A stretch of 33,629 nucleotides of DNA from an uncultured Oscillospiraceae bacterium. GTDB taxonomy: Bacteria > Bacillota > Clostridia > Oscillospirales > Oscillospiraceae. The notes beneath the pieces were generated by a model. That model did no database searches, was not told the origin of the DNA, and saw only the letters and a list, made by a program, of their open reading frames with translations. The stretch covers positions 1 to 33,629 of the forward strand of contig CALWXH010000019.1 of the NCBI GenBank assembly GCA_944385465.1. The letters run 5' to 3'. Positions 18,983-33,513 of the stretch are shown here, piece by piece; positions within the stretch are counted from its first letter, which is position 1; the number at the start of each line of letters is the position of its first letter. A program made the position numbers and the translations under genes.

Positions 18983-20329
18983 TCAGTCCAGGCCCTCCGC
19001 CTTCCGGCGCGCCCTGACTTTGGCGGCATAGCTCAGGGCGATGGCGGCAGCGTCTTTGCCATAGGGGGCGGGGTCCAGCAGCTGGTCGATCTCCTCCGGC
19101 GTGAGGTGGCCGGAGACCCGCTGATCTTCCTTGAGCAGCTGGGCCAGGGGCACGTCCTCCCGCACTGCCCGCACCGCCAGCTCGGTGACGATGCCCTTGG
19201 CGGTCATCTTGCCGATCTTCTTGCCCAGGGCCAGCATGACGGCCTCGGACTCCACCGCGCCCTTCAGCAGATCCAGGTTGCGGCGCATCCGCTCCTTGTT
19301 GACATACAGGGTGGAGATCATCTCCCAGGAGCGATGGAGCAGATCCGCCATGGTGACCCCCATGTGCTCCAGGGTGGTGCGCTCGTCGTCAAAGTGGACC
19401 AGATTGTGCTCGTGGTCAATGCGCATGCACTCCAGACAGTGGGCGGCGTCATACCGCAGAGTGCGGGAGTCGCCCATGATATGCTGGCTGTTGATGGGGT
19501 TGATCTTATGGGGCATGGCGGAGGAGCCCACCAGGCCCTCTGTGTAACCTTCGGACAACTCACCGGTCTCCGTGCCCATGAGCAGGTAGACCTCCTGGGC
19601 GATCCGGCCCAGCGTGCCACCGATGATGGCCAGGATGCCGGCCAGTTCCGCGACGCGGTCCCGGGCGGCGTGCCAGCACAGATCCGGGACGGACAGGCCG
19701 AAGTGGTTGGCCAGCATGGCCTCCAGCTGGGCGCCCTTGCCGTCAAAGGAGGACATGGTGCCGCTGGCGCCGGAGAAGGTGACGGCGAAGATCCGCTCCC
19801 GGCTCTCCCGCAGGCGCTGGATATCCCGGCCGATCTCACTGGCCCAGACGGCCGCTTTGAAGCCGAAGGTGATGGGCAGGGCCTGAATGTTGTGGGTCCG
19901 TCCGGCCATGAGGGTGCCGCTGTGCGCTTCCATCAGGCGCACCAGCTCGCCCTCGATGTCCAGCAGCACTTGCTCGGTGATGTCCCAGACCTGTTTCATC
20001 ATGACCATCTTGGCGATGTCCACCACGTCGTGGGTGGTGGCGCCCAGATGGACATATTCCCCGGCGGGGCCGGCGGCCTGCTTCAGCAGATCCAGAAGGG
20101 GTACCAGCGGGTGCTTGGTCTTTTTGTAGCGCAGCTGGTACTCGTCCATATCAATGTTTTCGATTTTGGCGGCAGCGGCAATCTGGACCGCGGCGTCCTC
20201 CGGGATGATGCCCAGCTGCGCCTGGCACTGGGCCAGGGCCGCCTCCACGTCCAACCAGGTCTGGAGACGGGCCTCGGTGGTGAACAGGCCGGAGACCCGC
20301 TCCTCAATGGAACCGTATTTGTCGTCCAT
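18983..20329 (-). CDS. Fumarase/adenylosuccinate lyase superfamily enzyme
   Basis: This 448-residue protein begins at MDDKYGSIEE; upstream extension of the frame overlaps the neighbouring gene. The three superfamily regions are visible: HLGATTHDVVD (94-104), GRTHNIQALPITFG (143-156) and GSSAMPHKINPINSQ (268-282). Members cleave fumarate or a relative from N-substituted aspartates, or run a similar beta-elimination. It is nearest in pattern to PurB and carboxymuconate cycloisomerase, but the usual Arg of PHKRNP is Ile, the Glu of the NPxxSE motif is Gln, and the Gly of RTHGQ is Asn. So adenylosuccinate is doubtful as substrate. It lies 8 bases after the cyclic amidohydrolase and probably acts on its product or a relative. 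Confidence 0.82.
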   Translation of the reverse strand: MDDKYGSIEERVSGLFTTEARLQTWLDVEAALAQCQAQLGIIPEDAAVQIAAAAKIENIDMDEYQLRYKKTKHPLVPLLDLLKQAAGPAGEYVHLGATTHDVVDIAKMVMMKQVWDITEQVLLDIEGELVRLMEAHSGTLMAGRTHNIQALPITFGFKAAVWASEIGRDIQRLRESRERIFAVTFSGASGTMSSFDGKGAQLEAMLANHFGLSVPDLCWHAARDRVAELAGILAIIGGTLGRIAQEVYLLMGTETGELSEGYTEGLVGSSAMPHKINPINSQHIMGDSRTLRYDAAHCLECMRIDHEHNLVHFDDERTTLEHMGVTMADLLHRSWEMISTLYVNKERMRRNLDLLKGAVESEAVMLALGKKIGKMTAKGIVTELAVRAVREDVPLAQLLKEDQRVSGHLTPEEIDQLLDPAPYGKDAAAIALSYAAKVRARRKAEGLD

Positions 20330-20337
20330 GGCCGGCC

Positions 20338-21714
20338 TCACTTGCTGTTTTGCGGGGTGATGAACTTGCCGTAGCCGGGCACGCCGTTGACCACGCCGTT
20401 CTCCATGACCACGCTGCCCCGCACCACGGTGTGAGTGACCCGGCCGTGCATCTTCCGGCCCACATAGGGGATGGTCTGGGTCTTGGTGTAGACCTTGTCC
20501 TGCTCGGTGATGACCCATTCGTCATTCATGTCCACAATGGTGAAGTCGGCGTCGGTGCCCACGATGTTGGAGCCCTTCCGGGGGTACATGCCGAAGGTCT
20601 TGGCGAAGTTCACGGAGGTGATCTCCACCAGCTTGTTCAGATCGTAGCAGCCCTCGTTCACGTGGCTGACCAGCAGGTGGCCGAAGTAGTCCAGCATGGC
20701 GAAGCCGGCGCCGGTGTGCAGGGCGTCCTCGGGGTGATAATCGCCGGGGGCGTGGGGGGCGTGGTCAGAGCCCACCATGTCGATGACGCCGTCCCGGATG
20801 CCCTTCCAGATCTTCTCCTTATCGGGGCTGGCATCGTGGCCCACAAAGATGTACTTGCCGCTGGCGATGTCGTAGATCTCATCGGAGGGGTCGATGGCGG
20901 GCATGTACTCCATGCTGGACACGATGGTCATATCCCCCCGCTCCTTCAGCATCCGCACCAGATCCACATAGCCGGGCATCCAGCAGTGCATGGCGTACCA
21001 CTTCATGCCGGTCTTGCGGGCGAAATAGGCCAGCTGATAAGCGGCGCCGGTCATCTCCTCGTCGGAGTACCAGCGGTAGCGGGTGTTCTTCAGATCCACC
21101 GGCTTGCCCTCGGCCTTGACCTCTTCCACGGCGGCGTCAAAGAAGTTCTTGTCAAAGGGGTGGACGGAGCAGTAGGCGTCGGCGGCGGCGCAGTCCTGGA
21201 AGGCCTGGTAGATCCGGTGGGTATCCAGGGTGCCGGCGGTGGTGTTGTAGGGATAGGTGGCCACCTTCTCAAACAGTTTGAACCAGGCGGCGCCGGCGTC
21301 CTTGATTTTCTGCACGTCCTCCCGGGGACCCAGGGGGTTGCCGATGGGGTTGAAGTCGATGACCGCCTTGGCCTTGCCGGCCTCCACCTCCTCCATATAG
21401 GCCTCCAGGGTGGAGGGGACGGGCTTGGTGTTGGGCTGGGGGCAGACCATGGTGATGCCGCTGTGGGCGGCGGCCATGGTTCCGGTATAGAAGTCCTCCT
21501 TCTGCGTCAGGCCGGGGTCGCGCAGGTGGCAGTGACAGTCAATGAAACCGGGTAGGACATGCTTGCCCTCTGCGTCGATGACACGCGCGCCCTCCATCTC
21601 CGTGCCGGGCTGGGCCAGAACGGCGATTTTCTCCCCCTTTACGCCGATGTCCAGCTTGTAGAAGCCCTGCTCAGTGTAGACCAGACCGTTTTTGATGACC
21701 AGATCGAAGTTCAT
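20338..21714 (-). CDS. Cyclic amidohydrolase, dihydroorotase/hydantoinase family
   Basis: This 458-residue metallo-hydrolase opens cyclic amides or ureides. The start MNFDLVIKNG follows AAAGGAG by about 8 bases. Binuclear metal ligands fit the family: His61 and His63 (FIDCHCHLRDPG), Lys146 as the carbamylated lysine (AAWFKLFEK), His185, His243 and Asp317 (GSDHAPHAP). Arg65 after the HxH motif resembles dihydroorotase and allantoinase. No pyrB, carAB, pyrE or pyrF lies nearby, so a catabolic role is more likely than pyrimidine synthesis. The lyase gene follows 8 bases downstream. The promoter region is shared with the divergent GntR gene. Confidence 0.85.
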   Translation of the reverse strand: MNFDLVIKNGLVYTEQGFYKLDIGVKGEKIAVLAQPGTEMEGARVIDAEGKHVLPGFIDCHCHLRDPGLTQKEDFYTGTMAAAHSGITMVCPQPNTKPVPSTLEAYMEEVEAGKAKAVIDFNPIGNPLGPREDVQKIKDAGAAWFKLFEKVATYPYNTTAGTLDTHRIYQAFQDCAAADAYCSVHPFDKNFFDAAVEEVKAEGKPVDLKNTRYRWYSDEEMTGAAYQLAYFARKTGMKWYAMHCWMPGYVDLVRMLKERGDMTIVSSMEYMPAIDPSDEIYDIASGKYIFVGHDASPDKEKIWKGIRDGVIDMVGSDHAPHAPGDYHPEDALHTGAGFAMLDYFGHLLVSHVNEGCYDLNKLVEITSVNFAKTFGMYPRKGSNIVGTDADFTIVDMNDEWVITEQDKVYTKTQTIPYVGRKMHGRVTHTVVRGSVVMENGVVNGVPGYGKFITPQNSK

Positions 21715-21804
21715 TGCGGATTCGCTCCTTTCAAAAGATGTGCCCGCACTGCGGCAGAGGCGCAGAGCGGGCGTGGCGGGGCCGTGCCCCTCTTTCTGAA
21801 TCAA

Positions 21805-21834
21805 AGTATACGCAAGGGAAAACACAGGGCGCAA
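21805..21834 (-). promoter_or_regulatory. Possible promoter of the hydrolase-lyase operon
   Basis: On the minus strand TTGCGC (21829-21834) and TATACT (21805-21810) are separated by 18 bases. The -10 box is good and the -35 weak, as expected for a regulated promoter. A GTATAC dyad overlaps the -10 box. Confidence 0.5.
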
Positions 21835-21903
21835 CTGATACATGCTTGTTTGTTGTTATATCGGGATGGGCGGCTGCATACACGAAAATGCAATAATATA
21901 CAT

Positions 21904-21933
21904 TTGACAGGAAAGCCGACAGACAATTATAAT
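21904..21933 (+). promoter_or_regulatory. Promoter of the GntR regulator gene
   Basis: TTGACA (21904-21909) and TATAAT (21928-21933) are separated by 18 bases. Both hexamers match the consensus fully. The TGTAT-like sequence ATATACATT directly overlaps the -35 box, so autoregulation is plausible. Confidence 0.8.
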
Positions 21934-22004
21934 ATATAACAAAACAAACGAGGATCCACCACGGCGGCGGCAGCCGCGCGCGAAGCATGAAGGAGGAAAC
22001 AAGT

Positions 22005-22691
22005 GTGGATGCCAGGATTCAGGGGCTGCTCTCCTGCGTTGTGAAAAAGAAGCAGGCCAGCGACACCCTTTACTATACCATCAAGGAAGGAATTGCCACC
22101 GGACTTTTGCCCATGGGTACCCGACTGCGGGAAGAGGAGTTGGCGGAGGCCTTTGACGTGTCCCGTACGCCAGTGCGGGAGGCTATGAAAAAGCTGGAGT
22201 TGGAGCAGCTCATTGACAGCACGTCCACCAACGGGTCCATTGTACGGGTTCTGACGGTGGATGAGTGCCTGGACACTCTGGAGGTGCTGGAATTGGTGCG
22301 GGCATCTGCCTGCAACCTGCTGGTGGGGCGGATCCCGAGGTCGCTCCTCATGGTGCTGGAGCAGAACACCCGCAAAGGGGAGCAGTGCAAGGATTCTTTC
22401 TCTCAGTATGAGAACAACGCGGAATTCCACGATCTTCTGGTGCGCGCCACGGGGAACAACGTGCTCATCCGCTTCAGCGACCAGCTGGCGTTTATCGAGC
22501 GGATGATCAACAACACCATATTGCCAGTCCACTTCGCCACAGACTACGCGATGCATCACCTTGCGCTGGTGAGGGCCATTGTGGAAAATGACCTGGAGGG
22601 GGTACAGCGGGAGCTGCAGCATAGCCAGGAGAAAGTGGAGGGGAATATGCGCCGCATTGCCGCCGCGTTTCTGGATACAGGGGCAAATTGA
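22005..22691 (+). CDS. GntR-family transcriptional regulator, FCD type
   Basis: This 228-residue protein has an N-terminal winged helix (DTLYYTIKEGIATGLLPMGTRLREEELAEAFDVSRTPVREAMKKLE, split over about residues 19-63) and an all-helical FCD ligand domain. The latter has the usual polar/histidine positions (NAEFHDLLVRATGN; HHLALVRAI). I place the start at GTG 22005 because AAGGAGG lies 8 bases upstream; an ATG at 21987 overlaps that box and has no site of its own. FCD regulators usually repress and release DNA on binding an organic acid. It lies between the hydrolase-lyase pair and the importer operon and most likely controls both. Confidence 0.88.
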   Translation: MDARIQGLLSCVVKKKQASDTLYYTIKEGIATGLLPMGTRLREEELAEAFDVSRTPVREAMKKLELEQLIDSTSTNGSIVRVLTVDECLDTLEVLELVRASACNLLVGRIPRSLLMVLEQNTRKGEQCKDSFSQYENNAEFHDLLVRATGNNVLIRFSDQLAFIERMINNTILPVHFATDYAMHHLALVRAIVENDLEGVQRELQHSQEKVEGNMRRIAAAFLDTGAN

Positions 22692-23109
22692 CCGCCTTTA
22701 CCAGGGAGAAACCGAAAAACATGTGAAACCAAGGTGCCGGGAGAGGATAAGTTTCCCTCCCGGCGCTTTATTCATTTACTCAGAAACCTGCCTGCGGGCC
22801 TGCCGTGGCTGCCCGCAGGCAGGCGGGAGATTTGACGGGTGGTGGAACGAATTGCAGTGAAAATTTCGTATATTTTCAGGCGGATGCGGTAAAATTGAAA
22901 TTTTGAAAAAGAAATTATTGTGCAGATGAAATACGGAGTGCATGTATGCAGAGAAGTACATTCCTGTGCACAGATGTATACCTGGAATTTTGCCGGCCCA
23001 GCACGTATAATTTGTACGAAAAGCTACGAAAGGCTGAGCGAAGCCTGGTAGTTTCTGCGCAAAACGCACGATGCCCCACAAAAACTGAGTAAGGAAAGGA
23101 TGGAACGAC
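22692..23109. promoter_or_regulatory. Regulatory gap before the importer operon
   Basis: This 418-base stretch has no gene. It holds a probable GntR terminator (22736-22772), a perfect 13-bp stem-loop without a T-tail (CCTGCCTGCGGGC at 22787-22799 with 22811-22823), then an A/T-rich promoter area. Upstream of a TATAAT at 23006-23011 lie three dyads: TGCAT-GT-ATGCA (22939-22950), CTGTGCACAG (22964-22973) and GTATAC (22976-22981). The -35 region is poor (TGGAAT at 22983), which suggests activation or strict control. Confidence 0.55.
22736..22772 (+). terminator. Probable terminator of the GntR gene
   Basis: GCCGGGAG (22736-22743) pairs with CTCCCGGC (22757-22764) around a 13-base loop and is followed by GCTTTATTC. 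The stem is good, the T-run weak. Confidence 0.55.
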
Positions 23110-24351
23110 ATGGTGAAAATGAAACGAGTATTGGCTCTGCTTCTGGCTGCGATGATGCTGCTGGGCCTGCTGGCCGCCTGTAGCGGGGACACGACGCCGA
23201 GCCAACAGCCCGACCCCGGCACCAGCGAACAGGGCGGGGAGGAGAATCCCGGTACCGACGTGCCCGAGCGGCAGACCCTGAAGATCGGCATCGCCACCTG
23301 CTTTACCGGAAGCGGCGCCCGGGGCGCTGAGACCCAGCTGTACGGCCTGGAGGCTGCTCTGAACCAGATTGAAGAGAGCGGCTACAGCAAGTATTACGAC
23401 TTCGAGCTGATCAAGGGCGATGACCAGTATGATGCCACCGAGGCGGTGTCCATTGCCAACAAGCTGGTGTACCAGGACGGCGTGAAGGCTGTGTTCGGAC
23501 ACCTGAACGCAGTGGTTACCCTGGCTGGCCTGGGTGTGTATGAAGAGGCCAAAGTGCCCTGCTTCACTCCCTCCGGTTCCTCCGATAAGGTCATCGACTC
23601 CGGCTATCAGTACGTCTACCTGTGCGTGCCCCAGGATCGGATCATCGCCTCCTCTCTGATGGACTATCTGGTCAACGACATGGGCGAGACCAAGATCGGC
23701 ATCCTGTACTGCAACAACGACCAGGGTCAGTCCTGGCTGAATTTCTGTGAGGAAGCTCTGGCGGAGTATGGCGTGGAGTTTGTGGACAAGCAGACCTATC
23801 TGGCCACCGACAACGACTTCACCGGCCAGCTGCTGAGCATGAAGAGCAACGGCGTGGAGGCCCTGGTGATCGGCGGCGGCGAAGTGAGCCAGCGCTCCAT
23901 CATGGTGCAGCAGGCCCGCCAGCTCATCAGTGAGGACGTGGTGATCTCCGGCGACGCCAACTTCTCCAACGCCACCTTCGTCAGCGTCACCGAGCCCGAG
24001 GAGCGGGAAGGCATCGTGTACCCCGCCGCCTGGTCTCCCGCCTTTACCGACGAGCAGAGCCAGCAGTACATTGAGGACTACCTGGAACTGGATCCCCTGA
24101 AGCAGACGCCCGGTGCGGTCACCGTCCGCTTCTATGACGGCATGTACCTGCTGGCCACCGCGCTGAACAACATGGGCCCCTATGATGTCAACGCCGAGGA
24201 CTTCACCGAGAAGCTGAACGCGGCCATCAAGGAGGCCTCCTACGACGGTCTCCAGGGCACCCTGGATCCCCAGGAGAACGGCGAGTGCCTCGACCAGTGC
24301 TATATCGTCCGCTACAACGCCGAGGGCGAAGAGGAACTGGTGGAGCGCTGA
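23110..24351 (+). CDS. Branched-chain amino acid-type ABC importer, substrate-binding lipoprotein
   Basis: This 413-residue protein begins with a lipoprotein signal, MVKMKRVLALLLAAMMLLG followed by LLAAC with Cys24 as the lipidated residue. A linker rich in Pro, Gly and Glu follows, and then a periplasmic-binding-protein fold of the LivJ class (IGIATCFTGSGARGAETQLYGLEAAL; LIKGDDQYDATEAVSIANKLV; CFTPSGSSDKVIDSGYQYVYLCVPQD). Members bind amino acids, amides, urea or small aromatic acids. The true ligand here is probably the cluster's substrate. AAGGAAAGG precedes the ATG. A strong stem-loop separates it from the permease genes. Confidence 0.92.
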   Translation: MVKMKRVLALLLAAMMLLGLLAACSGDTTPSQQPDPGTSEQGGEENPGTDVPERQTLKIGIATCFTGSGARGAETQLYGLEAALNQIEESGYSKYYDFELIKGDDQYDATEAVSIANKLVYQDGVKAVFGHLNAVVTLAGLGVYEEAKVPCFTPSGSSDKVIDSGYQYVYLCVPQDRIIASSLMDYLVNDMGETKIGILYCNNDQGQSWLNFCEEALAEYGVEFVDKQTYLATDNDFTGQLLSMKSNGVEALVIGGGEVSQRSIMVQQARQLISEDVVISGDANFSNATFVSVTEPEEREGIVYPAAWSPAFTDEQSQQYIEDYLELDPLKQTPGAVTVRFYDGMYLLATALNNMGPYDVNAEDFTEKLNAAIKEASYDGLQGTLDPQENGECLDQCYIVRYNAEGEEELVER

Positions 24352-24388
24352 TTTGTAAGAACTCTCTTTGATTCCCATCATGTTGACC

Positions 24389-24463: not shown

Positions 24464-25342
24464 ATGAATATTTTTATCCAATGTGTCATCAACGGGGTGG
24501 CGCTGGGCGCGGTGTATACCATCATGGCCCTGAGCTACACCATCCTGTTCGGCACGCTGAAAATCGCCAACTTTGCCCAGGGCGACATTTATATGATCGG
24601 CATGTTGCTGGGCTTTACCTTTTATGTGACGGCCAGCATGCCTTTTGTGGTGGCGCTGATCCTGGCTGTCATCATTACCGCTGCGGTGCTGTTGCTCATC
24701 GAGCGGGCGATCTACCGGCCGATCCTGAAGGTGTCCTCCATGTACCTGTTTATTGCCACCATTGGTATGGCCACCTTCCTGCGCAACGCCGCGCAGCTGG
24801 TGTTCGGCTCTGAGAGCTATTCCTTCCCCCACCTGTTCGGCAGCGACCCCATTCAGATTACGGAGAGCCTCAGCATCATTCCCCAGAACATTGTCATTAT
24901 CGTGGTGTGCGTCATTTTGGTGGTGGCGCTGTTCCTGTTCATGCGCAAGACCAAGACCGGTCTAGCCATGTCGGCGGTTTCCATGAACCCCTTCGCAGCC
25001 TCCCTGATGGGTGTGAACTACAGCCAGATCACCACCATCACCTACACCATCGCCGCGGCGATGGCGGCTATTGCCGGCGTGTTCACCGGGCCGCTGTACA
25101 ACGTCAGCACCACAGTGGGGGCGACCCTGGGGCTGAAGGCACTGATTGCCGCCGTCATGGGTGGATTCGGCAACTCCGCCGGCGCCATTGTGGGCGGCAT
25201 GATCCTGGGTTTGGTGGAGGCGCTGGGTAGCACCTATATCTCCTCCGCCTATAAGGACGCCTTTGCCTTCATTATGCTGCTGATCATCCTGTTCCTGCGT
25301 CCTCAGGGCATCCTGGGCCGCAAGAGCGTGTCCAAAGTTTAA
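24464..25342 (+). CDS. LivH-type ABC importer permease
   Basis: This 292-residue integral membrane protein has about eight hydrophobic segments. It starts MNIFIQCVINGVALGAVYTIMALSYTI and contains the LivH-type motif FGTLKIANFAQGDIYMIG and the ATPase-coupling loop AVSMNPFAASLMGVNYSQI. It forms one half of the import channel with the next gene. AAGGGACGC weakly resembles a ribosome binding site; translation may depend on the operon context. Confidence 0.92.
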   Translation: MNIFIQCVINGVALGAVYTIMALSYTILFGTLKIANFAQGDIYMIGMLLGFTFYVTASMPFVVALILAVIITAAVLLLIERAIYRPILKVSSMYLFIATIGMATFLRNAAQLVFGSESYSFPHLFGSDPIQITESLSIIPQNIVIIVVCVILVVALFLFMRKTKTGLAMSAVSMNPFAASLMGVNYSQITTITYTIAAAMAAIAGVFTGPLYNVSTTVGATLGLKALIAAVMGGFGNSAGAIVGGMILGLVEALGSTYISSAYKDAFAFIMLLIILFLRPQGILGRKSVSKV

Positions 25343-25357: not shown

Positions 25358-26359
25358 ATGAAAAAAGTAAAGACGAGAACCAAGATCATCATCGCCATCG
25401 TCCTGCTGCTGGCCATTATCATTCCTGTCTTCACCCGGGAGAACCGCTATTACATGGATGTATTCATCATGCTGGGCATCTATGTGATCCTGGGCGCCTC
25501 CATGAACCTGCTGATCGGTTACTCCGGACAGATCTCTCTGGGCACCGCGGGCTTTTACGGGATCGGGGCTTACGCCTCTGTTTTGCTGGTGATGGAGGCG
25601 AATATGCCCTTCCTGGTGGGCTTGATCTTCGCGGTGGTGCTGTGCTTCCTCATTGGCTATGTGCTGGGATTCCCGGCCACCAAGCTGAACTTTATCTTCC
25701 TGGGTCTGTCCACCGCGGGGTTGAATACCATTATCCAGCTGATCATCACCAACTCTGAGTTTACCGGCGGTGCCTCCGGCATCACCGGCATCCCCTCGGT
25801 GAAGCTCTTCGGGGAGCCCATGACCAAGCTGCAGTACTACTACATGACGCTGATCTTTGTGCTCATCGTGCTGTTTATCTGCTACCGCATCGTCAACTCC
25901 AAGACCGGCCGCGCCCTGATGGCCATCAAGGGCAATCCCATTGCGGCCTCCGCCATGGGCATCAACATCAACCGCTATAAGCTGCTGGTGTTCGCCATCG
26001 TGTCCGCCATGGGCGGGCTGGCCGGCGTGCTGTACGCCTTTAACATCCGCTACATCCAGGCGGAGGCCTTCACCACCAATATGTCCTTCAAGATCCTCAC
26101 CATGGGCATCATCGGCGGCATGGGCGACCTGGGCGGCGGCGTGCTGGGCTCCCTGGTGGCCGGCGCCCTGCCCGAGTTCCTGCGGGATCTGAGCAAGTAT
26201 CAGATGACCATTTACGGCCTGCTCATCGTACTGGTGCTGCGCTTTATGCCCAAGGGCATTGTCCATCCCATCCAGATTGGCCTGGATAAGCTGGAACAGG
26301 CGATTACCGGAGCCCTGGCCAAGCGGAAAGCCGCCAAGGCGAAGAAGAAGGAGGGCTGA
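25358..26359 (+). CDS. LivM-type ABC importer permease
   Basis: This 333-residue membrane protein pairs with the LivH-type permease. Family features are MNLLIGYSGQISLGTAGFYGIGAYAS, TGGASGITGIPS and the coupling loop AIKGNPIAASAMGININRYK. It has about nine to ten hydrophobic segments and a basic cytosolic C-terminus (KRKAAKAKKKEG). AAGGGGGGTG lies upstream of the ATG. The ATPase gene follows after three bases. Confidence 0.92.
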   Translation: MKKVKTRTKIIIAIVLLLAIIIPVFTRENRYYMDVFIMLGIYVILGASMNLLIGYSGQISLGTAGFYGIGAYASVLLVMEANMPFLVGLIFAVVLCFLIGYVLGFPATKLNFIFLGLSTAGLNTIIQLIITNSEFTGGASGITGIPSVKLFGEPMTKLQYYYMTLIFVLIVLFICYRIVNSKTGRALMAIKGNPIAASAMGININRYKLLVFAIVSAMGGLAGVLYAFNIRYIQAEAFTTNMSFKILTMGIIGGMGDLGGGVLGSLVAGALPEFLRDLSKYQMTIYGLLIVLVLRFMPKGIVHPIQIGLDKLEQAITGALAKRKAAKAKKKEG

Positions 26360-26362
26360 GTC

Positions 26363-27136
26363 ATGGGAACCATTTTGAAGACAGAGGCGGCCACCATGCA
26401 GTTTGGCGGCCTGACCGCGGTCGACCATGTGGATATGGAGATCCAGGCCGGCGAGGTCCACGCCCTGCTGGGGCCCAACGGCGCGGGAAAGACCACGCTG
26501 TTCAACATGATTTCCGGCATTTACACCCCCACCTCCGGCAAGGTGATTTTTCAGGGGAACGATATCAGCAAAAAGCGCTCCTTTGAGGTGGCGGCGCTGG
26601 GGATCGGGCGGACTTTCCAGAACATCCTGCTCTTTGATGACTTGAGCGCTTGCGACAATGTGATGATCGGCCGGCACCTAAAAACCAAGCAGCCACTGGT
26701 GGAGTCTATTTTCTGTACCCCCCGGATCCGCCGGGAGGAGAAAAATGCCCGCCAGCGCTCGCTGGAATTGCTCGATTACGTGAATCTGGGGGCGGACGCG
26801 GAGAAAAAGGCGGGCAGCCTGCCCTACGGCAAGAAGCGCCTGCTGGAAATTGCCCGGGCGCTGGCGCTGGAGCCCAGCATGCTGCTGCTGGACGAGCCGG
26901 CGGCGGGCATGAATCCGTCGGAGAGCGTGGAACTGATGGAGATCATCCGAAAGATCCGCGATGACGGCGTCACGGTCCTGATTGTGGAGCACAACATGCG
27001 GGTGGCGATGGGAATCTCCGATGTGGTCACCGTGCTCAACCACGGACAGAAGATCGCCGAAGGTGTGCCGGAAGTGGTGCAGCACGACCCGGCGGTCATT
27101 GAGGCCTATCTCGGGAAAGGCGGTGCAGCGCAATGA
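26363..27136 (+). CDS. LivG-type ABC importer ATPase
   Basis: This 257-residue nucleotide-binding protein has Walker A GPNGAGKTT (near residue 34), the signature LPYGKKRLLEIARAL (a normal LivG variant of LSGGQ), Walker B MLLLDEPAAGMNP and H-loop VEHNM. The C-terminal IAEGVPEVVQHDPAVIEAYLG is typical of LivG. Its TGA overlaps the LivF-type start codon (ATGA). Confidence 0.93.
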   Translation: MGTILKTEAATMQFGGLTAVDHVDMEIQAGEVHALLGPNGAGKTTLFNMISGIYTPTSGKVIFQGNDISKKRSFEVAALGIGRTFQNILLFDDLSACDNVMIGRHLKTKQPLVESIFCTPRIRREEKNARQRSLELLDYVNLGADAEKKAGSLPYGKKRLLEIARALALEPSMLLLDEPAAGMNPSESVELMEIIRKIRDDGVTVLIVEHNMRVAMGISDVVTVLNHGQKIAEGVPEVVQHDPAVIEAYLGKGGAAQ

Positions 27137-27849
27137 GTGAGACCATCCTGAAAGTCAGCGGCGTCAGCGCCCATTACGGCAGCATCAACGCAGTCAAGGA
27201 CGCGTCTCTGGAGGTGAACCAGGGTGAGGTGGTGACGGTCATCGGCGCCAACGGCGCGGGGAAGTCCACGCTGATGAAATGCATTGTGGGCGTCATGCCC
27301 AAGAGCGGCGGTACCGTGGAATATATGGGGCAGGACATCACCAAGACGCCCTCAGACAAGATCGTCCGGATGGGGATCGCCATGGTCCCGGAGGGACGGC
27401 AGATCTTCAGCGAGCTGAGCGTGCTGGAAAATCTGAAGATGGGGGCCTATACCCGCACAAAAAAAGAGGATTTGGCGGCGGACTATGATCTGGTGTTCGG
27501 CATCTTTCCCAGGCTGAAGGAGCGGGCCGGCCAGAAGGGCGGCAGCCTGTCCGGCGGCGAGCAGCAGATGCTGGCGGTGAGCCGGGCGCTGATGTCCCGG
27601 CCCAAGCTGCTGCTCATTGACGAGCTGTCCATGGGCCTTGCCCCGGTGCTGGTGGAATCCTTGTTTGACGCGCTGATGGATATCAACAAAAAGGGGACCA
27701 CCATTGTCCTGGTGGAGCAGGACGCCAATATGGCGCTGAAGTTTTCCAACCGGGCCTATGTCATTGAAAACGGCACAGTGGCGCTGAGCGGAAAATCCTC
27801 CGACCTGATGGCGGACGACCGGGTGCGGGAGCTGTACCTGGGCGGGTAA
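27133..27849 (+). CDS. LivF-type ABC importer ATPase
   Basis: This 238-residue nucleotide-binding protein has Walker A GANGAGKST, signature LSGGEQQMLAVSRAL, Walker B LLLIDELSMGLAP and H-loop VEQDANMAL. It completes a five-component Liv-type importer. It overlaps the preceding gene by four bases and is followed 51 bases later by the enolase-superfamily gene with no terminator between, so transport and metabolism genes share a transcript. Confidence 0.93.
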   Translation: MSETILKVSGVSAHYGSINAVKDASLEVNQGEVVTVIGANGAGKSTLMKCIVGVMPKSGGTVEYMGQDITKTPSDKIVRMGIAMVPEGRQIFSELSVLENLKMGAYTRTKKEDLAADYDLVFGIFPRLKERAGQKGGSLSGGEQQMLAVSRALMSRPKLLLIDELSMGLAPVLVESLFDALMDINKKGTTIVLVEQDANMALKFSNRAYVIENGTVALSGKSSDLMADDRVRELYLGG

Positions 27850-27900: not shown

Positions 27901-29109
27901 ATGAAGATCACAGATGTCCGGATTCGGACCCTGGTGGGCATTGACGAGAAGCCGGGGATGATTTACAACAACCAGAAGGTGGTGCGGGTGGCGCCCACGG
28001 ATATCCACCCGGAATACCGGAAGAAAAAGGGGCATATCAGCGTGACCCATGTTCCCCAGCCGGATGGGACCTATCGCATCACCCAGAACTTCCTGCTGGT
28101 GGAGACGGACGAGGGAATCACTGGTACGGTGGGGCCCATCAGCAATCCCATGCCTCCGGTGTATATCTTCACCTATTTGAAGCCGATTTTGATTGGGCAG
28201 GACCCCTGGGACGTACAGCGGCTGTGGGACATCATGTACCGATCCTGCGTCAACGGACGCAAAGGGGAAAACATGCAGGCCATCAGTTATGTGGACTGCG
28301 CCCTTTGGGACATCCGGGCCAAGGCCTGCGGCCTGCCGCTTTACAAGCTTTTGGGCGGCAGGGTGCAGAAGAAGATCCGGGCCTACGCCAATACTGCCGG
28401 CTATCCCCAAGATCCGGAGAGTATTGTGGCCGCGGTCCGGGATTTGAAGGACAGAGGATTTACCGCCATCAAATGGGGGGTATCCTATGGCCCGGCCGCC
28501 GGTGACGCGGGGATGAAACAGACGGTGGAGACCGTCCGGCTGCTGAGGGAGACTGCCGGGGACGATATGATGCTGATGCTGGACGCCTGGTCCAGCTGGG
28601 ATGTCCCGTATACCCTGCGCATTGCCCCGAAGCTGGCGGAGTATGATCTGGCCTGGATTGAGGAGCCGGTGATGCCTGATCTGGTGGAGAGCTATGCCTA
28701 TCTCAACCGCCACAGCCCAGTCCCCATTTCTGGCGGAGAGCATGAATATACCCGCTGGGGATATAAGGGCCTGCTGGACGCAGACGCCTGCGCGCTCTAT
28801 CAGCCGGACCCCGCCTGGAGCGGAGGAGTGACTGAGGTGGACAAGATCTTGGGGCTGATCTCCGCCTATGACCGCCGGGCCAGCCTGCACAACAGCCTGC
28901 CCGGACTGGGCGTCCACATGTCCTGCGCCTGGCCTACCAGTGTGGTTCCACTGGCGGAGTACCTGATGCTGGTGGGGGAGGCATCCCAGTATTTTCTCAA
29001 AACGCCCTGCAGGCCGGAAGACGGGTATTTTGCCCCGCTGGAGACGCCGGGCATCGGCCTGGACATTGATGAGTCCAAGGTGGATGAATCCTTCTTCCTG
29101 GAAGCATAG
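27901..29109 (+). CDS. Enolase-superfamily dehydratase, rhamnonate dehydratase-like
   Basis: This 402-residue protein has the two-domain enolase superfamily fold. Metal ligands fit Asp228 (LMLDAW), Glu254 (AWIEEP) and Glu280 (SGGEH); His330 (ASLHNS) is a candidate catalytic base and Lys191 lies on the second strand. The stretch YGPAAGDAGM (196-205) and the spacing of ligands resemble L-rhamnonate dehydratase. These enzymes abstract a proton next to a carboxylate, usually to dehydrate a sugar acid. A sugar acid role is unexpected between an importer and dihydroorotate-dehydrogenase-like genes, so the substrate may be another hydroxy-carboxylate. GGGAGGTG precedes the ATG. Confidence 0.85.
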   Translation: MKITDVRIRTLVGIDEKPGMIYNNQKVVRVAPTDIHPEYRKKKGHISVTHVPQPDGTYRITQNFLLVETDEGITGTVGPISNPMPPVYIFTYLKPILIGQDPWDVQRLWDIMYRSCVNGRKGENMQAISYVDCALWDIRAKACGLPLYKLLGGRVQKKIRAYANTAGYPQDPESIVAAVRDLKDRGFTAIKWGVSYGPAAGDAGMKQTVETVRLLRETAGDDMMLMLDAWSSWDVPYTLRIAPKLAEYDLAWIEEPVMPDLVESYAYLNRHSPVPISGGEHEYTRWGYKGLLDADACALYQPDPAWSGGVTEVDKILGLISAYDRRASLHNSLPGLGVHMSCAWPTSVVPLAEYLMLVGEASQYFLKTPCRPEDGYFAPLETPGIGLDIDESKVDESFFLEA

Positions 29110-29133
29110 GCGCGTGGGGAAAGGAGGCAGGCA

Positions 29134-30330
29134 ATGCGCAGATTGGAGCAGGCCATCGGCGGCATTTCTTTTCGCAGCCCGCTGGTGATTGGCGCCGGGC
29201 CACTGTCAGACCGACCGGATCTGATTGAACGGGCGGCAGCCTGCGGCGCCGGTGCGGTGAGCATCAAGCAGACGGCCTGGAGTGAGCCGAGGCCCGGCGT
29301 ACGAAAAATGTACGCTCAGAAGGGAGAGTGCTTTTTCAACCCCAGTGACCGCCGGCTGAAGCCGGAGGCTGCGGCCCGGCTGATTTATCAGGTGAGGCAG
29401 GTCACGGATATCCCGCTGCTGGTCAATATTCTGGGCAGCGGCGGAGATGCTGAGACCTGGGTTCAGCTGGGAGAGCAGATGGAGCAGGCCGGGGCGGACG
29501 GGCTGGAGCTGAATTTCGCCTGCCCCAATCCACCGGCCCAGAAAGACGCAGCGGGGCAGAACCTGCGCTACGGCGCGGCGCTGAGCCAGGAACCGGATCT
29601 GGCGGGCGCCATCATACGGGCCATCACGGAAAAAGTGAGCATTCCTGTCTGGGTCAAATTTTCCGGTGATGGAACAGACACCCCGGCCCTGTGCCGGGCG
29701 GCAGCGGCGGCAGGCGCGGCTGGGGTGACGGCCTTTTGCAGTCCACGGGGCGCCTTTCCCATTGACATTGAACAGGGAGGCAGGCCCAAGTTGGCGGATC
29801 TCTCCGTGTGCAGCTTCGGCGGTATCAACGGCCCGGCCATCCGGCCGGCCTCCAACCGGGTGGTGGCTGAGGCGGCCCAGGCGGTCCCGGGCCTTCCCGT
29901 TATGGGGGGCGGCGGAATCTCCAGGGTGGAACACGTGGTGGAGACCATCATGTACGGAGCCAGCCTGACCTTCCTGTTTACCCAGGTGATGCTGGAGGGC
30001 TTTGAGGTGCTGACAAAGCTGAATCAGCAGCTGGAGGCTTTTCTGGACTGCCATGGATATGAGAATGTGGAGGAGATGCGGGGGCTGGCGCTGCGGTACT
30101 TGGTGCCCAACAGTGAACTGGACTACCGGATCGGCAGGCCGGCGCGGATCGACCCGCGAAAGTGCCGGGGGTGCGGAACCTGCGGGAAGATCGCCTTTTG
30201 CCGGGCCATTCAGATGGAGGGCAAGACGGCGCAGGTCCAGCCGCGGCTGTGTGAGAGCTGCGGACTGTGCGCCAGTTTGTGCCCCTTCGATGCCATTTCT
30301 TTTGACGACGATCCGGAAGGGGGAGATTGA
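29134..30330 (+). CDS. DHOD/dihydropyrimidine dehydrogenase-type flavoenzyme with two Fe-S motifs
   Basis: This 398-residue protein has an FMN-binding barrel of the class I dihydroorotate dehydrogenase type. It shows ELNFACPNP with the likely catalytic Cys130, Lys175 (VWVKFSG), GGINGPAIRPAS and the FMN-phosphate segment GGGGISRVEHVVETIMYGAS. The C-terminus adds ferredoxin-like cysteines: Cys344/347/350/356 and Cys373/376/379/383. This order, barrel then two clusters, is like PreA and the C-terminal part of dihydropyrimidine dehydrogenase. The first cluster spacing, C-x2-C-x2-C-x5-C, is unusual. No PreT-like partner is adjacent, so the PyrK-like protein downstream may deliver electrons. AAAGGAGG precedes the ATG. 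Confidence 0.85.
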   Translation: MRRLEQAIGGISFRSPLVIGAGPLSDRPDLIERAAACGAGAVSIKQTAWSEPRPGVRKMYAQKGECFFNPSDRRLKPEAAARLIYQVRQVTDIPLLVNILGSGGDAETWVQLGEQMEQAGADGLELNFACPNPPAQKDAAGQNLRYGAALSQEPDLAGAIIRAITEKVSIPVWVKFSGDGTDTPALCRAAAAAGAAGVTAFCSPRGAFPIDIEQGGRPKLADLSVCSFGGINGPAIRPASNRVVAEAAQAVPGLPVMGGGGISRVEHVVETIMYGASLTFLFTQVMLEGFEVLTKLNQQLEAFLDCHGYENVEEMRGLALRYLVPNSELDYRIGRPARIDPRKCRGCGTCGKIAFCRAIQMEGKTAQVQPRLCESCGLCASLCPFDAISFDDDPEGGD

Positions 30331-30332
30331 CT

Positions 30333-31073
30333 GTGCTGGATACCTCGGGATGGCCCTATGTGGACGGACAGCGGGGGCGGATCGGACTGATCACACCGGC
30401 TCCGGGCAGCTCCACAGAGTGGGAGTTTAATCGCTATAAACCAGATGGAGTGGCGGTGCTCACCACCCGGGTTCCGTTGTTCGGAATCTCCTACGAGGGA
30501 ATTGCCCATATGACGCAGTATGTGGATCAGGCGGCGGAAATGTTGGCCAGAAGCTCTATTGTAGATCTGATCCTGTTCAGCTGTACAGCCGGCAGCTTCC
30601 TGGAGGGCGGGGACTATGACCGTCAGATGATCCAGCACCTGGAGGCGCTGACAGGGGTGCGGACTACCACCACCAGCACCTGTGTCCGTGAGGCGCTGAA
30701 CACGCTGGGTATTCGGGCGCTGCATGTGGTGACGCCCTATTCCGATGAAATCAATCAGCGGGAGCGGATATTTTTGGAGCAGTGCGGTGTGAAGGTACTC
30801 AGTATCACGGGAGCGCTGCTGGATCGCTCCCAAAATACGCCCAAGATCCCAGGCGGTGTGATGGCGGACTATGTCCGCCGGGCGGATACCGACCAGGCGG
30901 ACGGGATCTTCATCAGCTGCACGGGGCTGCATGTGGATGAGATCCTGGAGCCCCTGGAGCGGGAACTGGGCAAGCCGGTGCTGGCCAGCAATCAGTGCGG
31001 GCTGTGGGGCAGTCTGCGGGCGCTGGGGATCCAGGAGCAGATCCCGGGGCTGGGACAGCTCTTTTTCCACTGA
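30333..31073 (+). CDS. Asp/Glu racemase superfamily enzyme, two-cysteine form
   Basis: This 246-residue protein belongs to the superfamily that includes maleate isomerase, arylmalonate decarboxylase and hydantoin racemase. The motifs TTRVPL, FSCTAGSF with Cys84, VVTPYSDEINQ and ISCTGLH with Cys196 are present. Two facing cysteines are the catalytic pair of racemases and isomerases. The start is probably GTG at 30333, seven bases after AAGGGGGAG; an in-frame TTG at 30327 sits almost on that box. It follows the flavoenzyme stop directly and is paralogous to the next gene. Confidence 0.85.
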   Translation: MLDTSGWPYVDGQRGRIGLITPAPGSSTEWEFNRYKPDGVAVLTTRVPLFGISYEGIAHMTQYVDQAAEMLARSSIVDLILFSCTAGSFLEGGDYDRQMIQHLEALTGVRTTTTSTCVREALNTLGIRALHVVTPYSDEINQRERIFLEQCGVKVLSITGALLDRSQNTPKIPGGVMADYVRRADTDQADGIFISCTGLHVDEILEPLERELGKPVLASNQCGLWGSLRALGIQEQIPGLGQLFFH

Positions 31074-31085
31074 GAGGAGAACGCG

Positions 31086-31814
31086 ATGGGCAGACAATTT
31101 GTAGACGGCTACCGGGGGCGTATTGGCCTGGTGGCCACGGCGCCCGGAAATGCCACAGAGGCGGACTTCAACCGTTATCGCCCGGAGGGGGTGGCAGTGA
31201 TGACCACCCGGATTCCACTGACCAGTTCTACCCCGGAGGGGATTGGAGAGATGAATCAACAGCTGGAGGATGCGGTGCGGATGCTGGCGGGAAACGCCTA
31301 CTGCGATGTGGTTCTGTGCAGCAGCACGGCGGGCAGCTTTCTGGATGGACGCCAAGCGGATGAGGCGCGGGCGGCCCGGCTGAGCCGGGAGACAGGCTGT
31401 CAGGTGATCACCTCGGCGCAGTGCATGCTGAGCGCAATGGAGGCGCTGGATGTGAAGCGAGTTGCCCTGGTCACGCCTTCTTCCCGGGAACTGAATGAGG
31501 TGGAGTGCGCCTTCCTGGCGGAGGCGGGAGTGGACGTGGTGAGCCAAGGAGAATTTGACCTGAAGAGCCCCAGGGATATCCTGTGTACTGCGCCGGAGGA
31601 AGTGGAAGCGATGGTCCGGCAGGCGGATCGGAGGCAGGCACAGGGCATTCTCATCAGCTGCTCCGGCCTGCATGTCATGGAGTTGATCCCCAGACTGGAG
31701 GCCGAGCTGGGCAAGCCGGTGCTGGCCAGCAATCAGTTCGGATTGTGGGGCTGCCTGCGGGCGCTGCAGCTGCGAATGGACATGCCGGAGCTCGGTGCGC
31801 TGTTCCAGCATTGA
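31086..31814 (+). CDS. Asp/Glu racemase superfamily enzyme, one-cysteine form
   Basis: This 242-residue paralogue of the preceding gene keeps TTRIPL, STAGSF, VTPSSRELNE and ISCSGLH with Cys192. The first catalytic cysteine is replaced by Ser80 (SSTAGSF instead of SCTAGSF). In arylmalonate decarboxylase only the second cysteine is present. So this copy may be a decarboxylase-like or one-base enzyme, or a non-catalytic partner. GAGAGGAG precedes the ATG, 12 bases after the previous stop. Similar end segments (GKPVLASNQ-GLWG) point to gene duplication. Confidence 0.83.
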   Translation: MGRQFVDGYRGRIGLVATAPGNATEADFNRYRPEGVAVMTTRIPLTSSTPEGIGEMNQQLEDAVRMLAGNAYCDVVLCSSTAGSFLDGRQADEARAARLSRETGCQVITSAQCMLSAMEALDVKRVALVTPSSRELNEVECAFLAEAGVDVVSQGEFDLKSPRDILCTAPEEVEAMVRQADRRQAQGILISCSGLHVMELIPRLEAELGKPVLASNQFGLWGCLRALQLRMDMPELGALFQH

Positions 31815-31841
31815 ATGGTAAACTTAGGAGGAGATGATCGC

Positions 31842-32603
31842 ATGATTGCCAGACTGATCCAGTCCCGCCGGATCACGGCGCGGGACACCCTGTACGAGTT
31901 TGACTGCCCGGAACTGGCCCGGAAAGCGGCTCCGGGGCAGTTCGTGGAATTGGCCTTGGGAGAGGGAGAGGGGGAGGGATCGTTCCTCCGCAGGCCCATC
32001 AGCATATTTGACTGCGATGGGGAGCGCCGCTTTTTCCTGCTGGTGCGCACCGTGGGCCGGGGCACACAGGCGATGACCGGTTGGAAGCCCGGCCGGGAGG
32101 TGGATGTGCTGGGTCCGCTGGGCAATGGTTTCAGCTGGCCGGAGAGCGCCGGCGTCTGCGTGCTGGTGGGGGGCGGCATCGGGCTGGCTCCGCTGACCTA
32201 TCTGGCCCGCAGATTGCTGGAGACAGGGTGGACGGTTCGGCTGCTTTTCTCCCCGCGGAGGGAGGACGAGCTGCTGGATGCGCTGCCCCAGCGGGAAAAG
32301 CTGGAGATCCGCTGCGCGGAAAACCGCACGCAGCTGCCGGTGATTCTGGAGGAGATGCTGGCCCAGGCGGACTGTGTCTTTGCCTGTGGCCCGGAGGGTA
32401 TGCTGGAGACCGTGGCCGTCAAAACCATGCAGAGAGACATCCCCTGCCAGCTGTCCATGGAGCGGCATATGGCCTGCGGGATCGGGATCTGTCTGGGCTG
32501 CGCCATTGCGGTGCGCACGCCAGAGGGCCTGACCTATCAGAAGGTGTGCAAAGACGGCCCGGTGTTCCGGGCGGAGGAGGTGTCGTTCCATGAACAGCCT
32601 TGA
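31842..32603 (+). CDS. PyrK-like electron transfer subunit (FAD, 2Fe-2S)
   Basis: This 253-residue protein of the ferredoxin-NAD reductase type has the FAD-binding motif RRPIS (50-54) and a nucleotide-binding loop VGGGIGLAPL (109-118). The 2Fe-2S motif of PyrK is complete: Cys212-x4-Cys217-x2-Cys220-x15-Cys236. PyrK passes electrons between NAD(H) and the FMN of class 1B dihydroorotate dehydrogenase. The start at 31842 follows TTAGGAGGAG at a normal distance; an earlier ATG (31815) lies before that box. The 3' end overlaps the PyrD-like gene by 14 bases. Confidence 0.88.
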   Translation: MIARLIQSRRITARDTLYEFDCPELARKAAPGQFVELALGEGEGEGSFLRRPISIFDCDGERRFFLLVRTVGRGTQAMTGWKPGREVDVLGPLGNGFSWPESAGVCVLVGGGIGLAPLTYLARRLLETGWTVRLLFSPRREDELLDALPQREKLEIRCAENRTQLPVILEEMLAQADCVFACGPEGMLETVAVKTMQRDIPCQLSMERHMACGIGICLGCAIAVRTPEGLTYQKVCKDGPVFRAEEVSFHEQP

Positions 32604-33513
32604 GACGAGATTGGGCCGGGCGGTGTTCCGCAATCCGGTTATGGGCGCGTCCGGCTGCACTGGGCACGGTTATGAGCTGGCCGAGTATACAGACTTGTCC
32701 CGCTATGGGGCGGTGAGTTTGAAAACCGTGACCTATCACGCCAGGCCGGGGAACCCGCCGGAGCGGGTCAACGAGGTGCCCGGCGGAATCATCAGCTCCA
32801 TCGGCCTGCAGAATCCGGGGCCGGACGTCTTTCTGGCGCAGACTATGCCGAAATCGCTGGCTGCTTTGGACCGGGATCAGATCGTAGTCAGCGTGGCGGG
32901 AGATACCGTGGAAGAGTATGTAGAGCTGTGCCGGCGTACTGTGGAGCGGTATGGGGACCAGATTGCCGCGGTGGAAGTGAACGCGGCCTGCCCCAACGTG
33001 AATCATGGCGCGGGCTACTACAGCCGGGATGCCCAGGCGGCCCGGGAGCTGGTGACAGCGGCGAAAGAAGCGGTGGACGTGCCGGTGTTTTACAAGTTCA
33101 ATACGAATTTTGAGAACTACCTGGAGGTAGCCGCCGCGGTGAGCGAGACCGGGGTGGACGCCATCTACACCAGCAACACACCCATGGGATTGAAGATCGA
33201 CATCCGCAAAAAGCGCCCGGTGCTGGGGAATGTGGTGGGGCCGGTGTGCGGCTCGGCCATCCGGCCCATCGGTATGCTCCGGATCTGGAACCTGTATCAA
33301 GTGGTCTCTGTTCCGTTGGTGGCCAGCGGCGGCGCCAGCACCTGGGAAGATGTGATCGAGTACATGCTGGCGGGCGCCACGGCGGTGGGGGTGGGCAGCG
33401 CCCAGTTTGCCCATCCGGACATCGTGCCGCAAATTGTAAGCGGGTTGGAAGAATATGTGCGTAGAGAGGGTTTGGACAGCCTCTCCACCCTGGTGGGGGC
33501 GGCGCACGCGTAA
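32590..33513 (+). CDS. PyrD-like class 1B dihydroorotate dehydrogenase family protein
   Basis: This 307-residue FMN enzyme is the expected partner of the PyrK-like protein. It has the class 1B features NPVMGASGCTGHG, a lysine in SLKTVT (Lys45), SSIGLQNPG (69-77), NAACPNVNHG with catalytic-type Cys134, and Lys169. Differences from biosynthetic PyrD include Ala for Ser before Cys134 (AACPN for ISCPN), NTNF where LSPN is common, and GPVCGSAIRP for GGLSGPAIKP. The ring-binding area is thus altered, and the substrate may be an orotate-like ring or another cyclic imide. The gene lies in a catabolic-type operon and is followed by a terminator. Confidence 0.85.
   Translation: MNSLETRLGRAVFRNPVMGASGCTGHGYELAEYTDLSRYGAVSLKTVTYHARPGNPPERVNEVPGGIISSIGLQNPGPDVFLAQTMPKSLAALDRDQIVVSVAGDTVEEYVELCRRTVERYGDQIAAVEVNAACPNVNHGAGYYSRDAQAARELVTAAKEAVDVPVFYKFNTNFENYLEVAAAVSETGVDAIYTSNTPMGLKIDIRKKRPVLGNVVGPVCGSAIRPIGMLRIWNLYQVVSVPLVASGGASTWEDVIEYMLAGATAVGVGSAQFAHPDIVPQIVSGLEEYVRREGLDSLSTLVGAAHA

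Follow-up and report, generated by a model that had tools for sequence, protein, structure and literature searches.

A candidate catabolic regulon of pyrimidine-type enzymes with a predicted lyase branch in Oscillospiraceae

In the classical orotate fermentation of Clostridium (Zymobacterium) oroticum, orotate undergoes NADH-linked reduction, the ring is opened to N-carbamoylaspartate, and ureidosuccinase hydrolyses this product to aspartate. Here we describe a candidate catabolic regulon of an uncultured Oscillospiraceae bacterium that contains the same enzyme families and in which a cyclic amidohydrolase (AMH) and a lyase of the fumarase/adenylosuccinate-lyase superfamily (LYA) accompany an extra PyrK/PyrD pair. 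Its genes lie between positions 18,983 and 33,513 of contig CALWXH010000019.1 (GenBank assembly GCA_944385465.1). This entire contig, C19 of a 2.1 Mb draft genome, was analysed over its 33,629 nucleotides and is called the window below. As in the classical route, a type 1B dihydroorotate dehydrogenase (DHOD), PyrD, is present with PyrK; unlike that route, the cluster has beside AMH a lyase proposed to release fumarate, and no M20-family hydrolase for N-carbamoylaspartate scored above cut-off in the four genomes searched.

Three other described systems resemble the locus in part. Reductive pyrimidine catabolism (PreTA, dihydropyrimidinase and beta-ureidopropionase) also joins a DHOD-fold reductase carrying 4Fe-4S to a hydantoinase-like amidohydrolase, and the cluster encodes an Fe-S flavoenzyme of this kind (FES). 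However, neither PreT nor a ureidopropionase is among the cluster's genes, and FES reaches 174 of the 335 bits required by the PreA model, under its cut-off. In Clostridiaceae bacterium BRH_c20a (locus L061), PyrK, PyrD, an AMH-like protein (29% identity) and relatives (27–28%) of the arylmalonate decarboxylase (AMDase)-superfamily proteins of the window occur together. In contrast to the window, L061 has genes for an M20 carbamoylase and a TRAP-type transporter (recognized by eye) and no LYA match. L061 (1459-17573) also holds a deaminase-like amidohydrolase, an aldehyde ferredoxin oxidoreductase-like protein and OrtB, and looks like a purine/pyrimidine or ornithine-type degradation island. 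Finally, in the yxe clusters, according to PMC9706529, the S-(2-succino) lyase (2SL), a class I lyase, replaces an enzyme of a different class in a catabolic cluster and releases fumarate. The likeness of LYA to 2SL is one of role and setting rather than of compared sequences; LYA neighbours dihydroorotase-like and PyrDK genes, whereas 2SL in the yxe clusters neighbours an acetyltransferase and a deacetylase.

Gene content, conserved core and housekeeping counterparts

The original prediction, made from the window alone, had placed 14 genes here, and all were found at its positions, each with a Pfam match above the curated cut-off. AMH and then LYA are read on the minus strand; a GntR/FCD regulator, a Liv-type importer, an enolase-superfamily enzyme (ENO), FES, two AMDase-superfamily proteins (AMD1 and AMD2), PyrK and PyrD diverge from them. 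The genes on which the argument turns are:

18983..20329, minus strand: LYA, fumarase/adenylosuccinate-lyase superfamily lyase, proposed N-carbamoylaspartate lyase (Pfam Lyase_1 and ADSL_C; start from orthologues)
20338..21714, minus strand: AMH, cyclic amidohydrolase, dihydroorotase/hydantoinase-like (Pfam Amidohydro_1; motifs as in housekeeping PyrC)
21987..22691, plus strand: GntR/FCD regulator (Pfam GntR and FCD; regulators 71–74% identical beside AMH in three relatives)
31842..32603, plus strand: PyrK-type FAD/[2Fe-2S] electron-transfer subunit (Pfam DHODB_Fe-S_bind; open frame from 31815)
32590..33513, plus strand: PyrD1B-type DHOD paralogue (Pfam DHO_dh)

Two predicted starts, 20518 for LYA and 21843 for AMH, were corrected to Met codons at 20329 and 21714. 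The alignment with the LYA orthologue of a sister genome, G039, begins at query residue 61; for AMH, the G039 frame is closed by an upstream stop, and in the window position 21714 follows a Shine-Dalgarno-like sequence. The probable PyrK start is 31842, where the ribosome-binding site is better than at 31815.

A scan of the named genome collection with two AMH peptide patterns, which may miss more distant orthologues, returned 41 loci. Only four, at 79–97% identity, were counted as orthologues, all in genomes that carry an Oscillospiraceae or Flavonifractor label: G039, G002, an uncultured Flavonifractor metagenome-assembled genome (L058) and Flavonifractor sp. AGMB03687 (L059), which, from its strain name, is probably an isolate. 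The remaining 37, L061 among them, were weaker (23–31% over long stretches, or partial matches). Among 394 genomes of the order, AMH matches at E<=1e-50 were found in four: the window genome, G172, which we take to be the same genome as L059 since the match coordinates are identical, and two at 28%. On these searches, the system looks rare.

AMH and LYA are adjacent in all five genomes. GntR is present in each of the four with sequence at that point, the G039 contig ending 186 bases upstream of AMH, and PyrK and PyrD are likewise present in four of four, the L058 contig ending inside the malic enzyme gene. The Liv-to-PyrD half of G039 lies on a second contig at 84–97% identity; the cut ends fit, without proving, adjacency of its two halves. 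AMD1 and AMD2 occur in three of the five (the window, G039 and, at 68 and 62%, L058). No AMD match was found at the G002 locus, and L059 (8297-8476) retains a remnant of ~54 codons directly behind a candidate operator that is itself retained. Since the pair is absent from G002 and a remnant in L059, it is accessory, and the core can do without it. In G002, L058 and L059, the homologous loci gave no match to the importer or ENO (E 0.01), and FES matched PyrD only; at this locus, the Liv importer, ENO and FES are common only to the window and G039. The expectation that 11–12 genes would move as one set was not borne out: in the gene-neighborhood comparison across genomes, PyrK/PyrD and AMD are common to the two halves, whereas the importer, ENO and FES are not. 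Judged by gene neighborhoods, the shared core is GntR, AMH, LYA, PyrK and PyrD, to which two accessory genes and three locally added functions are joined.

Because housekeeping counterparts are located elsewhere, the cluster is an extra, diverged set. Contig C4 of the same genome carries pyrC, pyrF, pyrK and pyrD in a row (pyrC 422 bits, cut-off 279; pyrF 263, cut-off 111; pyrD 417, cut-off 269) and a true purB (393 bits, cut-off 326; LYA scores 283 on the same model). The C4 pyrK, at 212 bits, is under its NCBIfam cut-offs, as is the cluster PyrK, which has the family Fe-S domain. There are three DHO_dh matches genome-wide, two in the cluster and one on C4. The cluster is thus not the genome's only PyrDK and dihydroorotase, the case in which the prediction would have called a dedicated catabolic role unlikely; its statement that no other pyr biosynthesis genes are present holds for the window but not for the genome.

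A tree of 30 PyrD rows places the cluster PyrDs from the window, G039, G002 and Flavonifractor sp. AGMB03687 in a single clade (100/100), with a stem of 1.29 changes per column and distinct from the housekeeping PyrDs of the same genus; the BRH_c20a PyrD falls in this clade, with a long-branch warning there. The cluster PyrD passes the NCBIfam type 1B cut-offs, scoring 288 bits against 269 and 274 against 270, and, in the alignment, retains the Lys, Asn, Cys and NT pair that we take to be orotate-binding positions. The separate housekeeping set and the separate PyrD clade support the dedicated, probably catabolic role that had been proposed, and the locus is a real, rare and probably dedicated catabolic regulon.

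The lyase and the fate of the opened ring

LYA has a Lyase_1 domain and the GSSxMPxKxNP signature loop of the fumarase/aspartase (class I lyase) superfamily. It scores under the cut-offs of all 19 NCBIfam families matched (387 bits on a PurB-like subfamily model, 386 on the XcbD model, 283 of 326 on purB), and its solved relatives include trans-aconitate decarboxylase and 3-carboxymuconate cycloisomerase. A role as the housekeeping purB was ruled out, as a purB above cut-off was found elsewhere in three of four genomes, G002 being the one with none.

The gene-level evidence that LYA releases fumarate is fairly good, because malic enzyme directly follows LYA in three of the five genomes (G002, L059 and, as far as its contig shows, L058) and a two-subunit class I fumarase lies beside GntR in two (G002 and L059). 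In L059, both fumarase subunits exceed curated cut-offs (411 bits against 276 and 279 against 238); the G002 alpha subunit shares 81% identity with its L059 counterpart, and the G002 beta subunit was recognized by eye. In addition, no M20 hydantoinase/carbamoylase above cut-off was found in the window genome, G039, G002 or G172 (best weak match 24.5 of 204 bits), in a search that covered the M20 family only and that scored above cut-off in 6 of 14 genomes as a control. The distant L061 cluster of PyrDK, AMH and AMD relatives has an M20 carbamoylase (402 of 204 bits) and no LYA match, even at E 0.01. The original suggestion that the lyase could replace a carbamoylase, together with its remark that no M20-type enzyme was seen, gains support from the malic enzyme, the fumarase and the M20 search.

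If LYA releases fumarate, what does it cleave? Argininosuccinate and adenylosuccinate are N-substituted aspartates, a type of compound often cleaved by this superfamily, and AMH with PyrDK would yield N-carbamoylaspartate, which is thus the favored substrate. The gene-level evidence for it is moderate, and that for orotate as the natural substrate is moderate to weak. The one open-licence library searched yielded no paper describing a carbamoylaspartate lyase or a gene cluster for orotate fermentation.

From the observed gene content, conservation, paralogy and motifs, we infer every reaction, substrate and regulatory step that follows. Our best explanation, which we offer tentatively, is a catabolic regulon dedicated to orotate or to a closely related carboxylated cyclic ureide that would convert orotate to dihydroorotate, N-carbamoylaspartate and then fumarate and urea. 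The Liv-type importer would bring the compound into the cell, the extra PyrK/PyrD would reduce it with NAD(P)H (orotate to L-dihydroorotate), AMH would open the ring to give N-carbamoyl-L-aspartate, and LYA, in place of the usual carbamoylase, would eliminate urea to leave fumarate, all under the control of GntR/FCD. In the window, ENO, FES and AMD1/AMD2 probably convert related compounds (isomers, enantiomers, or carboxylated or hydroxylated precursors) into core intermediates. In the relatives, the cluster fumarase and malic enzyme would carry fumarate to pyruvate and recover the reducing equivalent spent on the ring. PMC9706529 states that the elimination equilibrium favors the adduct, and fumarase and malic enzyme would therefore also pull an unfavorable elimination. 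The full scheme, a redox-neutral anaerobic conversion of orotate to pyruvate, CO2 and urea via an as yet undescribed enzyme, N-carbamoyl-L-aspartate lyase, coupled by gene order to fumarase and malic enzyme, is possible but doubtful. More generally, the core most likely converts a pyrimidine-type ring into fumarate and urea via a lyase branch.

LYA matches at E<=1e-40 were found in 5 of 149 genomes, the window's own included. Two of the five, G055 and G025, have no AMH match in the stretch examined and were left out of the core count. Their LYA relatives (35–38%; L056 1375-6000 in G025 and L055 9134-11793 in G055) lie beside transporter genes, that of L055 being a DASS-type match under cut-off. 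Behind the G025 relative lie genes for a class II fumarase (694 bits, cut-off 665) and malic enzyme. These relatives occur without AMH or PyrDK matches and perhaps serve another substituted-succinate pathway.

Alternative substrates and roles

AMH shares HLR(D/E)PG (as HLRDPG), PN, the metal-site histidines and DHAPH with housekeeping PyrC, and alignment with PyrC reveals the residues of a class I dihydroorotase: the Arg of HxHLR, which presumably binds a carboxylate, the Asn of PN and the metal ligands, whose roles we likewise assume. It also has an FK lysine, which we take to be hydantoinase-like. On pyrC_multi, AMH reaches 178 of 279 bits, under cut-off, compared with 422 for housekeeping PyrC, and on the NCBIfam hydantoin-5-propionate amidohydrolase model 161 of 650. 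AMH relatives at 28% in G331 and G454 (L112 and L113), which lie in other neighborhoods by eye, and plasmid amidohydrolases at 33%, for which two neighborhoods were viewed, were rejected as the same system.

Several observations weigh against orotate and the proposed lyase reaction. The substrate is read from family membership, and AMH stays under the cut-offs of the best 25 among the 57 NCBIfam families matched (top score 206 of 482 bits); the solved structure closest to it is an L-hydantoinase (1gkr, E 1.8e-52), ranked above all dihydroorotase chains listed. One PyrD position, presumably in contact with orotate, is Ser in the window, G039 and L061, and Asn in G002, L059, the housekeeping enzyme and L. 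lactis PyrDB. Between the window and G002, L058 or L059, LYA is 48–49% identical and AMH 79–81%, so that the lyase substrate could differ. In G002 (94% complete), no purB scores above cut-off and the best match to that model is LYA itself (310 of 326 bits), so that a purB role is possible in that genome. The G025 relative of LYA exceeds the purB cut-off by 1.6 bits (327.8 of 326.2) and may be a PurB; as PurB also releases fumarate, this locus is weakened as independent evidence of catabolism. The window cluster itself has neither fumarase nor malic enzyme, and an orotate route has no need of ENO, FES, AMD1 or AMD2. Urease was looked for in four genomes without success, AMH being the only match, at about the cut-off, and urea would be left over as an end product. 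Lastly, a scan ahead of the window's Liv-to-PyrD operon scored 7.8 at best and did not recover the candidate operator described below.

Could a different ring enter the same pathway? The main substrate could be a five-membered hydantoin, such as 5-carboxymethylhydantoin, that AMD1 racemizes and AMH opens, while PyrDK and FES act on unsaturated relatives. The L-hydantoinase 1gkr as closest solved relative, the FK lysine, the match to hydantoin-5-propionate amidohydrolase, the two filled cysteine positions of AMD1 and the renewed co-occurrence of AMD and AMH relatives in L061 all fit this idea. However, PyrK/PyrD is present in all four clusters with sequence while AMD is inconstant, AMH has the dihydroorotase-type arginine, and a hydantoin needs no PyrDK; we consider such an entry unlikely. 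It is also conceivable, although on balance rather improbable, that LYA splits another substituted succinate (an S-succino, another N-succino or a C-C substrate), with AMH and PyrDK acting on a non-pyrimidine. The lyase superfamily is catalytically broad; LYA scores almost equally on the XcbD and PurB-like models and lower on purB, all under cut-off, and has the decarboxylase and cycloisomerase noted above among its solved relatives. ENO is near acid-sugar dehydratases, and FES homologues accompany sugar- or aconitase-type genes at five of the seven loci viewed outside the window and G039 (partly by eye). S-(2-succino) lyases are found in bacterial catabolic clusters (PMC9706529). What this alternative leaves unexplained is the constant pairing of LYA with a dihydroorotase-like AMH and PyrDK, and the lack of a carbamoylase above cut-off.

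A third proposal, that PyrDK and AMH serve pyrimidine synthesis or redox balance, as a backup or with orotate as an electron sink only, and that LYA is unrelated, would agree with a PyrD that passes the type 1B cut-offs. We regard it as very unlikely, given the existing housekeeping set, the importer here and the malic enzyme and fumarase of the relatives, and the absence of carbamoyltransferase and other synthesis genes from the cluster.

Regulation, importer, accessory genes and surroundings

If the orotate-type core is a regulon, how is it controlled? We identified a candidate operator, a 24-base motif with core ATGTATCA-TTGC, seven times across five loci. In the window and G039 it precedes AMH; in L058 it stands ahead of the AMD pair and in L059 ahead of the AMD remnant; and in L058, L059 and G002 it precedes an Nramp-AMH-LYA operon. 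Immediately upstream, or nearly so, five of these sites have a TATAA(C/A) box; the two AMD-gene sites have TACAGT and TACAAC there. The sites between the divergent operons of the window are:

21831..21854, minus strand: candidate operator directly behind a TATAAC box, before AMH (position weight matrix score 32.9)
21904..21933, plus strand: consensus sigma-70-type promoter (TTGACA-18-TATAAT) before the regulator gene, 12/12 matches

The operator scores 32.9 against 8.4 for the next best place in the window, with a matrix built from the same sites, this one included; the G002 input row was one base out of register, and the L054 scan placed that site in register at 22.9 bits. Promoter-like sites number 5 in the region against 4.1 expected, and 21904..21933 is the sole perfect one. 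GntR may bind the candidate operator. As the motif was not found before the Liv-to-PyrD operon, co-regulation of the two halves of the window is hypothetical. A search for the GntR/FCD operator TNGT-ACNA gave three scattered single matches, and a different motif emerged.

The importer and accessory genes of the window are as follows:

23110..24351, plus strand: lipoprotein-like substrate-binding protein of a Liv/HAAT-type ABC importer (Pfam periplasmic binding protein)
24464..25342, plus strand: LivH-type permease (Pfam BPD_transp_2)
25358..26359, plus strand: LivM-type permease (Pfam BPD_transp_2)
26363..27136, plus strand: LivG-type ATPase (Pfam ABC ATPase)
27133..27849, plus strand: LivF-type ATPase (Pfam ABC ATPase)
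27901..29109, plus strand: ENO, MR/MLE enolase-superfamily enzyme, nearest to acid-sugar dehydratases (Pfam; NCBIfam)
29134..30330, plus strand: FES, DHOD-fold flavoenzyme with a C-terminal two-[4Fe-4S] domain, PreA-like architecture (Pfam DHO_dh and 4Fe-4S)
30327..31073, plus strand: AMD1, AMDase/maleate-isomerase/EutA superfamily, both cysteine positions filled (Pfam PF17645)
31086..31814, plus strand: AMD2, same superfamily, Ser at the first cysteine position and Cys at the second (Pfam PF17645)

In three relatives, an Nramp-family transporter (L054 9934-11157, PF01566 for this copy; L058 8534-9904; L059 8618-9913) is the sole transporter in the AMH-LYA operon, where the window has the Liv importer. 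Its role may be to provide the enzymes with metal or to bring in the organic substrate. G+C is 57% in two 2-kb bins over GntR-Liv (22001-26000), compared with 61–67% (14001-22000) and 61–62% (26001-32000) in neighboring bins, which is compatible with later insertion of the importer.

The nearest named relatives of ENO are acid-sugar dehydratases; it has a 94.5% orthologue in G039, and no other genome among the 394 had a match at E<=1e-70. FES homologues at 33–34% were found in six genomes, by eye at four loci among sugar or sugar-acid genes (L133, L134, L137 and L138, beside GFO/IDH-type dehydrogenases and hydroxyacid or sugar enzymes) and at two of one genus (L135 and L136) among housekeeping genes. 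A 40% homologue in G065 (L043 5169-11151) adjoins two large subunits of the aconitase/3-isopropylmalate-dehydratase type and creatinase-like proteins (by eye). With such neighborhoods, FES was rejected as evidence for pyrimidine chemistry; by eye, proteins of this type look like an uncharacterized DHOD-like Fe-S enzyme of sugar-acid clusters.

AMD1 and AMD2, previously read as Asp/Glu racemase relatives, are better described by the arylmalonate decarboxylase family PF17645 (121 and 97 bits) than by Asp_Glu_race (24 and 36, cut-off 31); AMD2 passes both models, AMD1 only PF17645, and both miss the curated arylmalonate decarboxylase cut-off of 225 bits (116 and 88). AMD1 has Cys at both positions and AMD2 only at the second, in all three genomes with both genes. 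We take a single Cys at the second position, as in AMD2, to be the pattern of arylmalonate decarboxylase, and Cys at both, as in AMD1, to be that of racemases and isomerases of the superfamily. It is possible that the two are a racemase/isomerase and a decarboxylase-like partner. AMD homologues at 36–40% occur at L111 348-9050 (G000:C38), L109 and L110 with PrpD-like proteins (by eye) and, at L111, a molybdopterin oxidoreductase set; adjacent pairs occur in G379 and G267. The family seems to serve several carboxylate pathways, and two annotated neighborhoods of plasmid AMD relatives gave no clear function. Either ENO, FES and the AMD pair widen the diet, or the true substrate of the window is an orotate relative that needs them first.

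Upstream of the cluster lie a ribosomal-operon-type region (SecY, an M24 peptidase as in methionine aminopeptidase, RpoA) and then two ABC exporter genes. PyrD stops 116 bases short of the contig end; in G039 it likewise closes the run of genes, facing convergent frames there. Two terminator-like elements flank the cluster:

18919..18960, minus strand: terminator-like stem-loop between the upstream ABC exporter gene and the lyase gene (19-pair stem, T-rich tail)
33524..33559, no strand assigned: 36-base perfect inverted repeat ending in T5, bidirectional terminator-like, following PyrD

Terminator-like sites number 26 in the region against 10.1 expected; the repeat at 33524..33559 is outside this list, whose rule requires a loop of 3–8.

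The dedicated catabolic role and the lyase in place of a carbamoylase are the parts of the original prediction that fared well; the fixed set of 11–12 genes did not. If the proposed route is correct, it would add a lyase branch, with urea-forming breakage of the pyrimidine ring, to pyrimidine catabolism, and would bring a new activity, a further reaction, to the argininosuccinate/adenylosuccinate lyase superfamily, a prediction that could be checked with three purified proteins. Bacteria form urea by arginase and by allantoate/ureidoglycolate breakdown, and this would be one more route. Oscillospiraceae are often gut anaerobes and orotate is plentiful in milk; the route would explain how some members of the family could use orotate as both carbon source and electron sink.

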